From NCBI GenBank assembly GCA_028864885.1, contig JAGWLR010000003.1, positions 1 through 64,000 on the forward strand: DNA of 64,000 nt, in the 5' to 3' direction. Each line of letters starts with the position of its first letter. Position 1 is the stretch's first letter. This DNA comes from Burkholderiales bacterium. Its GTDB lineage: Bacteria > Pseudomonadota > Gammaproteobacteria > Burkholderiales > Burkholderiaceae_C. This document shows, piece after piece, positions 59,733-64,000 of the stretch. The notes under the pieces were generated by a model. It had not been told where the DNA came from and did no database searches. It was given only the letters and a program-made list of their open reading frames with translations. The position numbers were made by a program, and so were the translations under genes.

Positions 59733-59807
59733 GGGCGGTTAGCTCAGTGGTAGAGCACTGCCTTCACACGGCAGGGGTCGCAGGTTCGAACCCTGCACCG
59801 CCCACCA
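59733..59807 (+). tRNA. tRNA-Val, anticodon CAC
   Basis: The cloverleaf is complete: acceptor GGGCGGT/ACCGCCC, D-arm GCTC...GAGC, anticodon stem CTGCC/GGCAG with loop TTCACAC, T-arm GCAGG-TTCGAAC-CCTGC and encoded CCA. The anticodon CAC reads GTG valine codons. A terminator follows 10 bp after, then an accessory element. An inverted repeat TGATTGAG...CTCAATCA lies just upstream (59686-59714). Confidence 0.97.
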
Positions 59808-59816
59808 AGAAAATCA

Positions 59817-59847
59817 AGCACTTAGCAGCCATGCTAGGTGCTTTTTT
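59817..59847 (+). terminator. Rho-independent terminator after tRNA-Val
   Basis: AGCACTTAGC and GCTAGGTGCT pair with one G-T pair around a six-base loop, followed by TTTTTT. It lies 9 bp after the CCA end, so it ends the tRNA transcript. Confidence 0.85.
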
Positions 59848-60163
59848 CTTGTCGGTAGGAAAAACGTAGGAAAAAGCGGGTTTCAAACTTTGCCTAAGGC
59901 GCCGAATTTGTCCGTAAATACCGGCAGATCAACAGCGTGTCGGTTTGTTGCTTCACGCGCATGTCCCCGTTGACGATTTCGGGGCTGATTCCCCGCATGG
60001 TTACCCTGAAACCTTAACGTAACCTCACCGTTGCAACCCGTGGTGTGACCTTAGGATTCAGTAGCTTGAGTTGAAGCGTGCAGCGAAGAAGCGATTACTA
60101 GGCAGCGCTCAAAACGGGACCCCATCTTGCATACTGTCATTTCACGTATGTGGAGGGCAAGCG
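59848..60163. other. Gene-poor segment at the element start
   Basis: No convincing gene is present. An 11-bp sequence GTAGGAAAAAC is repeated in tandem (59855-59875). A minus-strand ORF of 34 residues (59998 to 59894, MRGISPEIVNGDMRVK...) with AGGG upstream is possible but unsupported. The rest carries a small hairpin (GGGGCTGATTCCCC) and no known motif. Confidence 0.4.
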
Positions 60164-60436
60164 ATGGACGACGATGAGGACATTCTTCGCCAGAGGTCTG
60201 AAATTGCGGACGCGAGGCTTGGCGTTGCAGAGGAATTGGTTTGGTTTATCGCTTTCCTTATTGCGTATGTCGCCAATCAGCACCTTGATAGTGTCATTGC
60301 TTCCCTTGCGATTTTTGCGCTGACCTACTTCGCCGTGACTGCCCCCTATAGGTCGCAGGCTAAGACGGCAGAGGATACGTACTTTCGGGTTGCCAAACTT
60401 GGAAAATATGCCCAAAGAGGGTTGCGCGACGATTGA
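60164..60436 (+). CDS. Small hypothetical membrane protein
   Basis: This 90-residue protein starts at ATG 60164 (MDDDEDILRQRSEIADARLG) with GGAGG seven bases upstream; the ORF-track start is a TTG without ribosome-binding site. Residues 25-65 contain two adjacent hydrophobic stretches (LVWFIAFLIAYVA, then VIASLAIFALTYFAVTA), flanked by charged ends. I recognise no family. It is element cargo; composition is more AT-rich than the core genes. Confidence 0.65.
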   Translation: MDDDEDILRQRSEIADARLGVAEELVWFIAFLIAYVANQHLDSVIASLAIFALTYFAVTAPYRSQAKTAEDTYFRVAKLGKYAQRGLRDD

Positions 60437-60572
60437 AAGCTGCAGAGTTCATTACATGTCAGCAACTGCAATACCTTGCTATGACCTTGTTGTAGCTGAA
60501 TGTCCCGCCCGCGCGTAGGTACGACGCGCCCCTCTTGTGCGGTATCGTTGGTGCAAACAACAGGAGGTTTCA

Positions 60573-60893
60573 ATGCTCACTCGGTTTGCTGCCGTAGGCT
60601 CTTTTGTTTGTGCAGTTGCGCTTGTCGCAGGATGTGCCCATTCGGGCGTGGTCGCTATGGGGCCCGACACCTACATGGTCGCCAATTCAGAATGGGGCTT
60701 TTCCTCCGGCGGCTATCAGAAGGCCAAGGCGCTGCAAGAGGCATCTGGTTATTGCAAAAGCATAGGCAAGGAAATACTGGTGCTGTCGTCCAAGCAAAAC
60801 GACGTTGAGCTTGGAAAGACGCCCGCGGCAGAGATTCAGTTCCGCTGCCTGCCACCCGGTGATCCTGATCTGAAGCGACCTGCGCCGTTTTGA
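60573..60893 (+). CDS. Small lipoprotein of unknown function
   Basis: This 106-residue protein starts at ATG 60573, with a clear AGGAGG. The signal peptide ends in the lipobox LVAGC. The mature part has GPDTYMVANSEWGFSSGGYQKAKALQEASGYCKSIGKE and ends with EIQFRCLPPGDPDL, a pattern I know from a family of short Gram-negative lipoproteins without assigned function. The two Cys after the lipobox may form a disulfide in the periplasm. Confidence 0.8.
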   Translation: MLTRFAAVGSFVCAVALVAGCAHSGVVAMGPDTYMVANSEWGFSSGGYQKAKALQEASGYCKSIGKEILVLSSKQNDVELGKTPAAEIQFRCLPPGDPDLKRPAPF

Positions 60894-61165
60894 GGTCCAT
60901 TGATTGTTTTTTAGGGTCGGTGTGCCGACCTTCCCGCGCGCGTACTGAGCAGCGTTTGATTTCATTTGATTGTTTTTCAGGCAACCAACAGTCATACAGC
61001 GCATTTGATGATGCCCGTTTGAAAAAGGGGATTTATTCTGCGCGTGGGCTCACATGCGGTTTCCAGCCCTCAATGCGCCATAGATAGCTCCCCCCCCCTA
61101 CGTCAGGGTGTGGCCTTTTTAGGGTTGTGACAAAGTACGGCGATTCAATGATGAAGGAGCCGTCA
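60894..61165. repeat. Intergenic segment with direct repeat, CG-rich motifs and poly-C run
   Basis: The segment contains a near-identical direct repeat CATTGATTGTTTTTTAGG / CATTTGATTGTTTTTCAGG (60898-60914 and 60963-60981), a hairpin GGTCGG-TGTG-CCGACC (60916-60930), a CGCGCGCGTA motif (60935-60944) and nine cytosines in a row (61090-61098). No gene is recognised. Confidence 0.5.
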
Positions 61166-61423
61166 ATGGAGTGGATTTTTCCAGCCGCTATCGGTGTGAT
61201 TGTGTATTTCCTCTCTGAGGCTCTACCTGGGCCAGTTCCTGGTTTGCTCGGACTACTTGCCGCAACAGTGATCTACTTGGAGATGCGCCTTAGGCATTGG
61301 GTCGAGCTCTATTCGATCACTGACAGGCAACTTATCGACACCGACAAACGACTTTGCGAGGCTGAAGAATTGATTGGTGAGTTGACTCAAAAGGTTGAGT
61401 CCCTGACGAGTCAGATGTCCTGA
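61166..61423 (+). CDS. Small membrane protein with C-terminal coiled coil
   Basis: This is 85 residues from ATG 61166 (MEWIFPAAIGVIVYFLSEALPG), because AAGGAG lies six bases upstream; the track starts at a GTG 39 bases before. Two hydrophobic stretches (about 5-15 and 22-35) precede a heptad-like helix (LIDTDKRLCEAEELIGELTQKVESL). I recognise no family. It is presumably element cargo. The minus-strand ORF at 61253-61549 partly overlaps it. Confidence 0.6.
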   Translation: MEWIFPAAIGVIVYFLSEALPGPVPGLLGLLAATVIYLEMRLRHWVELYSITDRQLIDTDKRLCEAEELIGELTQKVESLTSQMS

Positions 61424-61549
61424 CGCTTTGGAATTGTTCACCGCCCCTTTGATGTGCCGGGCTTCATTCGCCTTTTTTGGCTTTTTTAAAGCCCAGATCA
61501 CCAGCGTCAACACGATGTTGTCAAAGATCAGCTCGCCGGGTTCGCTCAT
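61253..61549 (-). CDS. Possible small membrane protein, overlaps opposite gene
   Basis: This 98-residue ORF starts at ATG 61549. The first 40 residues look protein-like (GELIFDNIVLTLVIWALKKPKK, then NEARHIKGA), but the second half runs antisense to the preferred plus-strand gene. It has only a weak ribosome-binding site. It could be the next member of the minus-strand operon after the ribbon-helix-helix gene. Low support. Confidence 0.25.
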   Translation of the reverse strand: MSEPGELIFDNIVLTLVIWALKKPKKANEARHIKGAVNNSKASGHLTRQGLNLLSQLTNQFFSLAKSFVGVDKLPVSDRIELDPMPKAHLQVDHCCGK

Positions 61550-61554
61550 GTGTT

Positions 61555-61582
61555 GACGCCTACGCGCGCGCGTTAAGGCGTC
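61555..61582 (-). promoter_or_regulatory. Nested inverted repeat after the RHH gene
   Basis: GACGCC...GGCGTC flank TACGCGCGCGCGTTA, itself nearly self-complementary. It is downstream of the RHH stop by 10 bp. It lacks a U-run, so it may be an operator or a terminator of unusual kind. A related CG-repeat occurs at 60510 and 60935. Confidence 0.4.
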
Positions 61583-61591
61583 TGAAAATCA

Positions 61592-61810
61592 TCAGATCTT
61601 CTGTTTGTTGTCTGTTCTGAGAGACTGGGGCAGGGTGTCTCTGGCCAGTTTCTCGGTAATGGCCAGCCGCACAAACTCCGCCCGGTTGCCTCGGGCTGGA
61701 TGGTTCCTAGCCAGTTTCAGCAGTAAATCAACTTGCTGCACCACATCATCAGGGACCGATACGATCAGCCTTAGTACAGGATTGCCGTGGAATCTTCTGG
61801 CCATACTCAT
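61592..61810 (-). CDS. Ribbon-helix-helix (CopG-like) protein
   Basis: This 72-residue protein has the layout of a short N-terminal strand and two helices (LRLIVSVPDDVVQQVDLLLKLARNHPARGNRAEFVRLAITEKLAR). That is typical of RHH DNA-binding proteins that act as repressors or plasmid copy-control factors. ATG 61810 overlaps the stop of the 35-residue ORF as ATGA. It may regulate the replication operon it closes. Confidence 0.8.
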   Translation of the reverse strand: MSMARRFHGNPVLRLIVSVPDDVVQQVDLLLKLARNHPARGNRAEFVRLAITEKLARDTLPQSLRTDNKQKI

Positions 61811-61914
61811 GATTGATTTCCTATCTGTATTTTGCTGTTATTTGCAGCAGCGTTGACCCCGGCCAGGGCGCGCACGATTTGGTCGAACACAGCTTGTCCG
61901 GGGTCTTGAGTCAT
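61807..61914 (-). CDS. 35-residue ORF, coupled at both ends
   Basis: This ORF is too short for the ORF track. It reads MTQDPGQAVFDQIVRALAGV, then NAAANNSKIQIGNQS. The start ATG overlaps the stop of the upstream gene (ATGA at 61911-61914) and its stop overlaps the ATG of the RHH gene (ATGA at 61807-61810). The double coupling and helical first half argue for a real gene. The function is unknown. Confidence 0.65.
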   Translation of the reverse strand: MTQDPGQAVFDQIVRALAGVNAAANNSKIQIGNQS

Positions 61915-62498
61915 CGTTCTTCGAAGCCTTCGCAACGGTGCAGGATGTGTGTCACAGGCTCAAGTAAGCCAATCACGCCTTCAATGCGTCCGCGCCGTGC
62001 TGATGTACATCTGCCTTTTGAATCCAGGCCAGAGCATTCCAGGCACATGCGCCGGTCATCGCCTTCACGGTCCCGCGTAACCAAGCTATAGGCCAGCCGT
62101 TCGGCCTTGACCGGGTTCACGCCACACATCACGAATGAATCGACCCGTCCAGTGAATCGGTCAATCTCCCGCGTGTTCATGGCCTCGGTTTGTGGCCAGC
62201 AATGCCGATCAGGGTCTAGCGGTTCCCCGTGGATTTCAGCCGCCATGCGTTCGGCGTGTTCGCGTGACATTTCGCCATCGTGTTCAATGATTGCGGCTCG
62301 TTCTTCGAATGCTTCTTTCTGGCTGGCTTCATCGGGGTGTTGAAGAGCCTGAACGATGGCGGCTTTGTGGCTCTTGATGGCGGCTCGCTGATCCTGTGAC
62401 AGCTTGCTGGCAGGCTGCACCGCCAGATCGCCCGAAGGCAATACGGACAGTGCGATGCCTGCACGCCTGAGCCCTTGGAGTAGGTCAGGCGCGCCCAT
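61911..62498 (-). CDS. TubC-docking-like protein of mobile elements
   Basis: This 195-residue protein has an N-terminal segment (LLQGLRRAGIALSVLPSGDLAVQPASKLSQDQRAAIKSHKAAIVQAL) that follows the pattern of TubC-like docking domains. Such domains are also present in small proteins beside RepA-type ATPases on mobile elements. The C-terminal part has four or more cysteines (VMCGVNP, MCLECSGLDSKGRC, HRCEG), possibly a zinc site. The middle is acidic and helical. Its start overlaps the ATPase stop by one base (TGATG). Confidence 0.65.
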   Translation of the reverse strand: MGAPDLLQGLRRAGIALSVLPSGDLAVQPASKLSQDQRAAIKSHKAAIVQALQHPDEASQKEAFEERAAIIEHDGEMSREHAERMAAEIHGEPLDPDRHCWPQTEAMNTREIDRFTGRVDSFVMCGVNPVKAERLAYSLVTRDREGDDRRMCLECSGLDSKGRCTSARRGRIEGVIGLLEPVTHILHRCEGFEER

Positions 62499-63694
62499 CA
62501 GATAACCTCTATATCGTCAGGTTGAGAAGGCGTCGGATCGGCAACTTGCTCTCCAACTTGCTCAACTTGCTCACTGTTTGAAAGTTGAGCATCTTGAGCA
62601 ACTTGGGTGAGCAACATGGGTAGTCGCCAGTACCAGACACCCCCGTCACCACGTCGCTTGGTCACCTTCAGATCGTCTGCTGCACGTCTGACAGAAGCCC
62701 ATTTCACGCCCGCCGCTTTCGCTTCAGCTTCGACCGTTTTAGTCGGGGTGACGCCGGTGGCCAGCACTTGCAGAAGAAAGTCCGCAGCCGCTTGTCTTGC
62801 GCCTGGAGCTTGTTCTCCTGTTTCTTCTGTTTGGGCGTCTGGCTCTCGCAGTAGATCGCGGGCTGTGCCTGCAACACCTTTGCCCCAATTGACATAGCTG
62901 GCGTGAATGCCCGGCAATGGTTCGGCTTGCTCGATGGTGTATTCAAAACCACCATCGTCCGGGCCAATGTTGGACTTGCCTCGCGCCAGGATGCGCCGGT
63001 CTTGGCTGTCGTCGTCTTCGTCCTTGACCTTGGCTGCAACCAGCACCACGCGCGCCACCGCAGTGAATGCAATCGAGCCCACCACCCGAGATGCAGGATC
63101 GGACCCGGCTCCGCCTTTGGAGAAATGCGAGATGCCCAGCACAGCAGCATCAAGCCTTGATCCAAGGTCAACCAGTGGTTGCAGTGCGCGTCTTACTTCG
63201 GTGTTCTTGTGGCTGTCGCCTTGAACGGCTGACACCACTGGATCAACGATTAGCAAGCGAACACCGCCAATTGATCGGGCCTGATCTTCAAGGGCTGTCA
63301 TGTGACTGGCTGGATCAAACGGAATCACATCACCGTCAACTTGCGTGCCCTGCACAAAGTAGCAGCGCGAACGGTCAGCACCAGCAGCCAGCAGGCGAGG
63401 CAAAAGGGTGTCTGCTGGATCATCCTCACCGGACCAGATCAGCACGTTTCCAGGCTCGCAGCGTGCGCCACATGGCCAGCGCCCACCGATGGTGATAGTT
63501 GCTGCTATGGCTAGGGCAATGGTTGTCTTTCCCTGCCCGGGTGCGCCAGCCAGGATGTGCAGCTTTCCTAGTGCCAGCCAATCAGGCCAAAGCCACCGCA
63601 CAGGCTCAGGGGTTAGGTCCGATCCATTGACCAAGACCACAGACGGTGGGAGTCCAGCCATTTGCAGGCGCTTCAGGTCATCGGTCCCACTCAT
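62498..63694 (-). CDS. RepA-like AAA ATPase (replicative helicase type)
   Basis: This 398-residue RecA-fold ATPase has Walker A LAGAPGQGKTTIALAIA (about residue 50), then IWSGEDDPADTLLPRL, and Walker B LLIVDPVVSAV. GISHFSKGG and VVGSIAFTAVARVVL follow, which matches RSF1010 RepA-like helicases of plasmids and integrated elements. The C-terminal part is a helical accessory domain, with a Gln/Glu-rich end. It probably unwinds the element's origin. Its ATG overlaps the primase stop as ATGA. Confidence 0.85.
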   Translation of the reverse strand: MSGTDDLKRLQMAGLPPSVVLVNGSDLTPEPVRWLWPDWLALGKLHILAGAPGQGKTTIALAIAATITIGGRWPCGARCEPGNVLIWSGEDDPADTLLPRLLAAGADRSRCYFVQGTQVDGDVIPFDPASHMTALEDQARSIGGVRLLIVDPVVSAVQGDSHKNTEVRRALQPLVDLGSRLDAAVLGISHFSKGGAGSDPASRVVGSIAFTAVARVVLVAAKVKDEDDDSQDRRILARGKSNIGPDDGGFEYTIEQAEPLPGIHASYVNWGKGVAGTARDLLREPDAQTEETGEQAPGARQAAADFLLQVLATGVTPTKTVEAEAKAAGVKWASVRRAADDLKVTKRRGDGGVWYWRLPMLLTQVAQDAQLSNSEQVEQVGEQVADPTPSQPDDIEVI

Positions 63695-64000
63695 GCTGTA
63701 CCTCCGCCCTGTTCGTCAAAGTGCGCACGCTCCAAGTTGTCGATCACCGCGTCAATCCTTCGTTCATCGCGCCGTGCGTAAACGTCTGCCCAGTCCTCGC
63801 CAGGGGTTTGAGGGATCAACACCGATACCGACAGACCAGCCGCACGCGCACGGCTTTCGAGCTTGTGTGCAGCCGCTTGTCCTGTTCCGCTTTCGTCGTT
63901 GTCTCCGAAGATCACCAACCGCTTGACGCCTCGGGGCCACTGGAAGCTGCTCAAGCAGCCAGCCGAATAGGTGGCCACTACCGGTAGGGCGCTTGCAGCA
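63691..64000 (-). CDS. Toprim-domain primase-like protein, C-terminal part
   Basis: The frame is open to the right edge (AASALPVVATYSAG onward), so only about 102 residues of the C-terminus are seen. The Toprim metal motif reads LVIFGDNDESGTGQAAAHKL, with the DxD-type acidic pair. This fold is used in primases and primase-helicase fusions of phages and integrative elements. It precedes the RepA-like ATPase with an ATGA overlap, which supports a joint replication role. The N-terminal zinc or DNA-binding domains are outside the window. Confidence 0.8.
   Translation of the reverse strand, partial: AASALPVVATYSAGCLSSFQWPRGVKRLVIFGDNDESGTGQAAAHKLESRARAAGLSVSVLIPQTPGEDWADVYARRDERRIDAVIDNLERAHFDEQGGGTA

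Follow-up and report, generated by a model that had tools for sequence, protein, structure and literature searches.

A probable satellite-like island without capsid genes carries a cfPICI-type replication module at the tRNA-Val gene of a Burkholderiales bacterium

We analysed a 64,000-nt stretch of DNA (the window), which comprises bases 1–64000 of contig C106 in a genome assembly of 3.54 Mb and 194 contigs (99.99% complete). The contig reaches 1.5 kb beyond the window and itself stops at 65529, within the element described here. The original prediction had placed an abrupt switch in gene content after an intact tRNA-Val(CAC), to small plus-strand genes and a minus-strand operon, and both ARAGORN and the open reading frames bear this out. 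The features are as follows (positions are those of the window unless a contig is named):

59733–59807, plus strand: tRNA-Val (CAC), the integration site, intact (ARAGORN); it adjoins dnaQ across the genus
59763–59807, plus strand: att core, 45 bp, spanning the 3' half of the tRNA gene; C154 carries an identical second copy on its minus strand
59816–59843, plus strand: tRNA terminator hairpin; a related hairpin comes after the second att copy, and the same type is found in a subset of relatives
60071–60436, plus strand: small ORF, 121 aa, probable ATG at 60164; cargo without a family match
60573–60893, plus strand: lipoprotein-like cargo gene, 106 aa from the ATG; homologues in seven other genomes of the family
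61127–61423, plus strand: small cargo ORF, 98 aa
61592–61810, minus strand: RHH-like small protein, 72 aa, at the end of the operon (weak matches: RHH 0.22, NikR-like 0.019)
61807–61914, minus strand: 35-aa ORF, overlapping the RHH-like gene
61911–62498, minus strand: TubC_N-like protein, 195 aa, with a C-terminal Cys motif (Pfam TubC_N 1.8e-4)
62498–63694, minus strand: RepA-like AAA_25 (RecA-fold) ATPase/helicase, 398 aa (Pfam AAA_25 1.6e-39)
63691–64000, minus strand: 3' part of a primase-like gene (Toprim/DUF7146) that continues past the window edge
C106:64916–65437 (L002:5917–6438), minus strand: AlpA-domain ORF, 173 aa (AlpA 1.6e-9)
C154:47685–48863, reading toward the contig end at 49144, i.e. 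into the element: tyrosine integrase, 392 aa (Pfam, PHROG)

Past the window edge, the Toprim gene is completed on C106, followed by a 71-aa ORF and the AlpA-domain gene. The whole Toprim/DUF7146 gene (C106:63691–64692) encodes a protein of 333 aa that matches Toprim_3 (1.9e-19) and DUF7146 (6.4e-23) in Pfam and the DNA primase family PHROG 510 (7e-42), and it overlaps the RepA-like gene by 4 bp. Among the operon labels first proposed, RepA-like and Toprim hold up in Pfam, whereas TubC_N-like and RHH should be read as weak, both matches falling below the family cut-offs. Homologues of the TubC_N-like protein nevertheless come after RepA in most related elements, and its AlphaFold model (pLDDT 63 overall) reaches 85–91 over the N-terminal 50 residues. 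A comparison of the RepA profile with solved structures returned nothing useful. The fold matches of the RepA model (a RAD51/DnaB-like core and a winged-helix end) are only suggestive, since its mean pLDDT is 54. The reading frames of all core genes of the element are intact, with overlaps typical of an operon; the lipoprotein-like gene and the other small genes on the opposite strand, close to the tRNA, sit in the cargo position. Family searches found no structural, terminase, relaxase or conjugation gene among the ORFs of the assembled element. No defence or cargo family was matched by its small genes, the lipoprotein-like protein had no match in phages or viral contigs, and the integrase had none in IMG/VR. 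We also considered a resident HK97-type helper or a hidden capsid gene and rejected both, as the HK97 capsid family (PF05065) is found nowhere in the genome assembly.

The att cores at both ends of the element are identical over 45 bp (TTCACACGGCAGGGGTCGCAGGTTCGAACCCTGCACCGCCCACCA), and a related terminator then follows the second copy. In a genome-wide pattern search that allowed ≤3 mismatches in 30 bases, the tRNA-Val 3' end turned up exactly twice: in the tRNA itself and at C154:47523–47552 on the minus strand, a place in which ARAGORN detects no tRNA gene. The window contains a single occurrence of a 30-base stretch of the core (0 expected from shuffled sequence), and the exact 45-bp repeat (E 1e-28 including flank) is not due to chance. 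The terminator hairpin is probably carried by the arm of the element. The integrase gene (Phage_integrase 5.4e-8; PHROG 1 integrase 3.4e-37) begins 117 bp from the end of the second att core, so that the direct repeat of the tRNA 3' end and the adjoining integrase by which a tRNA integrative element is recognised are both present. The original prediction had seen no integrase in the 4.2 kb after the tRNA, which is correct only because the window stops there; the tyrosine integrase and the repeat that it proposed to look for were both found on C154.

We infer that tRNA-Val on C106 and the integrase on C154 mark the two sides of one element, with an unassembled gap between them. Three observations lead to this: att is present in two copies, the integrase and the replication genes read in the same direction, and in genome G026 the tRNA-Val fragment is separated by 124 bp (versus 117 bp here) from an integrase with 60% identity to this one. 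A contig bridging the two was sought, and no overlap was found. The order of the element would be att, int, the gap, AlpA, the 71-aa ORF, Toprim/DUF7146, RepA (AAA_25), the TubC_N-like gene, the 35-aa ORF, RHH, three opposed small genes and tRNA-Val. The assembled part amounts to 7.34 kb. In 19 out of 20 complete relatives the distance between integrase and alpA is 292–1509 bp (3.3 kb in the remaining one), and 373 bp of this interval are already assembled here; the missing piece is therefore probably shorter than ∼1.1 kb, and the total length would be roughly 7–9 kb.

The tRNA-Val gene beside dnaQ has received other islands in the genus. Several congeners (L062, L063, L064–L066, L067, L068–L069 and L070–L072) have a second tRNA-Val fragment of 45–50 nt located 2–50 kb downstream, which marks the far end of an island of about that length in this tRNA gene. 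In genome G010, which has no second copy, the right flank is common to the DNA past the second copy in three other genomes (G018, G026 and G007), which indicates that the site takes islands repeatedly. The empty site is thus seen for other tRNA-Val islands, while the right flank in our genome is not common to the relatives tested, and the genes on C154 show no synteny with congener flanks. The replication gene itself (RepA) has no homologue in any of the 41 same-genus genomes, the outcome expected of an insertion in the comparison with relatives that had been suggested at the outset. The C154 DNA past the second att copy (L019:172–4470) encodes an HTH/M78 protease-like gene, an AbiEi-like antitoxin and other genes. 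This flank is possibly a second island stacked at the same tRNA, because a hairpin of the type found on the element arm follows the second att copy.

Homologues of RepA are present in 42 out of 401 genomes of the family, spread over 33 genera; none above 60% identity was found in phage or plasmid collections. We mapped 33 of these loci. Nearly all contain int, RepA and a primase-like gene (zinc-ribbon or Toprim), often together with alpA and usually with a TubC-like gene, and lie beside varied tRNAs. HK97 capsid genes come directly after RepA in 17 of the 33, an arrangement that is the layout of capsid-forming PICIs (cfPICIs). The capsid-bearing elements bounded by att sites measure 9.6–11.0 kb, a size that leaves no room for a tail cluster. 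For example, the 11-kb IMG/VR contig L111 reads int, AlpA-like, RepA, TubC, capsid, protease, portal, connector, HNH, TerS and TerL, followed by host uvrB. A RepA profile search of IMG/VR, a collection biased toward capsid-bearing contigs, retrieved 70 contigs, 54 of them with a capsid gene and many of ∼10–11.5 kb. About a dozen matches lie in viral contigs of 26–83 kb, so small satellites are not the only setting of the module.

Relatives without capsid genes are also found between att sites: L117 (6.2 kb, tRNA-Met), L118 (7.5 kb, tRNA-Asn) and L136 (14.2 kb, tRNA-Pro). The cargo of the last one (L136:10439–17158) includes genes for type I restriction-modification and for a ThsA-like SIR2 protein. 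On the RepA tree, presence of the capsid gene changes four times, against a mean of 11.7 for shuffled labels, i.e. the capsid-less elements are clustered and do not represent scattered losses. The tree neighbours of our element are L059, L112 and L116; L059 and L116 have no capsid gene in the DNA fetched, which is not bounded by att sites, and L112 is cut off by a contig end after TubC.

The AlpA ORF has an unusual start. Close to its beginning it carries an SSB N-terminus (MKRAINKVLLIGNLGRDP), followed by a linker (SISDGAPESGGGGASAA) leading to AlpA. The AlpA ORF of genome G331 (L135:669–1259) carries a longer SSB N-terminus on the same type of linker, and that of G388 (L136:6681–7316) carries, again on this linker type, an N-terminus that we take, by eye, to be DnaN. 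The sequences flanking this swapped N-terminal block hardly differ between G331 and G388. The linker motif SISD[GD]xPESGGGGA[SA]A occurs in exactly three of the 401 family genomes (0 in a reversed control); a further occurrence, in viral contig L165, was set aside because it falls by chance within a capsid ORF that is unrelated. Most differences between the linkers are synonymous, a pattern that points to selection on the peptide. The SSB piece of G331 is 84% identical to another place in the G331 genome, presumably its own ssb; no strong match was found for a donor of the N-terminal piece in our genome or in G388. It is conceivable, and in our view rather doubtful, that this subgroup of three swaps the 5' end of alpA, with the start of ssb or dnaN joined in frame via the linker as a replaceable cassette that would tie AlpA expression or activity to the replication or damage state of the host. 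A perfect DnaA-box (TTATCCACA) lies upstream of alpA at position 546 of L135 and position 6564 of L136, making this region a possible candidate origin. Behind the integrase on C154 lies a broken fragment of host ssb (L019:8880–9010), with 48 bp that are 94% identical to the chromosomal ssb (C49:17326–17373). The N-terminal fusion of AlpA together with this fragment could reflect partial decay of the element.

With its two ends, an integrase and a replication module that is absent from same-genus relatives and shared with cfPICI-like elements, the island is almost certainly a mobile element bounded by the tRNA. Our best reading is that it is a capsid-less satellite-like island, an analogue of PICIs and PICMIs that uses a cfPICI-type replication module. 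We put the probability that it is a phage satellite at roughly 0.6, and its dependence on a helper phage, like its excision, replication and packaging, is what we infer from the genes. The integrase would recombine the 45-bp core in the 3' half of tRNA-Val(CAC), leaving the tRNA whole. AlpA, probably an excisionase or activator, would induce excision together with the integrase, and the excised circle would be copied by the Toprim primase and the RepA helicase, with the TubC_N-like protein. Since capsid, terminase, relaxase and conjugation genes are all missing from the assembled ORFs, spread as a phage satellite is the most likely route: the terminase and particles of the helper phage itself would package the element without packaging genes of its own, as in PICMIs.

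Integrative and mobilizable elements (IMEs) are among the small tRNA-integrated elements that encode a primase/helicase of their own, and the Toprim protein weakly matches the TraI C-terminal family (1.1e-6), over its primase-like part only. Our element could accordingly excise and replicate by itself and be moved in trans by a conjugative element through an unrecognised oriT. We consider this unlikely: the relaxase and/or conjugation genes that mark IMEs and ICEs are absent from the element ORFs searched, as are coupling protein and mating-pair genes, the relatives of RepA accompany capsid genes rather than transfer genes, and those on plasmids are all below 60% identity. About as improbable is a decayed capsid-forming PICI or prophage that has lost its structural genes and become immobile. 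Capsid-bearing relatives are common, and the broken ssb fragment behind the integrase fits decay, but the core genes are all open with operon-style overlaps, the att cores are identical, capsid absence is clustered on the RepA tree and other capsid-less elements bounded by att sites exist.

The joining of the contigs allows a further alternative, in which two separate islands, one on C106 and one on C154, are stacked at one tRNA-Val and the integrase is part of the other island. The lack of synteny between the C154 DNA past the second att copy and any congener flank tested makes stacking plausible in itself. A third att copy would be needed between the islands, however, and only two were found at ≤3 mismatches; moreover, the integrase and the replication operon share their direction, as in complete relatives. 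We regard this alternative as very improbable.

Read as a capsid-less satellite-like island, the element can be placed among systems already described, and the initial suggestion of an undescribed system at this locus overstates the case: islands of this kind are known, and ours is a variant of them. The element type, which had been left open, is narrowed by the match of its module to cfPICI-like satellites. It resembles cfPICIs in its module (int, AlpA, primase, RepA and a TubC-like gene, arranged alike), a homologous RepA, an att site in a tRNA and a similar size class; it differs in having no capsid, protease, portal, HNH or terminase gene in the assembled part (the gap is probably < ∼1.1 kb). 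PICMIs of the Vibrionaceae need int, alpA and prim for excision or replication and have no structural genes; the model combines int and alpA with a DUF3987/DUF5906 primase at a site next to fis (PMC10803314). Our element has the same minimal set of int, alpA and primase with few cargo genes and no structural genes, but it lies in tRNA-Val beside dnaQ, and its primase is of the Toprim_3/DUF7146 type with a separate RepA helicase. The genes by which PICIs are broadly recognised (specific att site, integrase, AlpA, replication genes) are all present, as in Gram-negative PICIs such as EcCICFT073 (PMC6092414), where AlpA is the activator. Unlike in that type, the Toprim primase and RepA are separate here and are not recognised as Pri-Rep, and no interference or capsid-remodelling gene was recognised. 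Islands at tmRNA/tRNA genes that are moved by jumbo phages (e.g. I55) likewise have a tyrosine integrase, alpA, direct repeats at the tRNA/tmRNA and no autonomous transfer genes; our element is smaller, and the core genes named for them (RadC, YqaJ and inovirus Gp2-like; PMC12595487) do not include its replication proteins.

One replication module is thus common to capsid-forming and capsid-less islands, and its RepA relatives span 33 genera of one bacterial family, in att-bounded tRNA islands down to 6.2 kb. These islands offer a natural comparison for studying the gain or loss of a capsid by satellites and the minimal genes that suffice for being carried. Because some of the capsid-less relatives bear defence genes, phage resistance may also travel with them.
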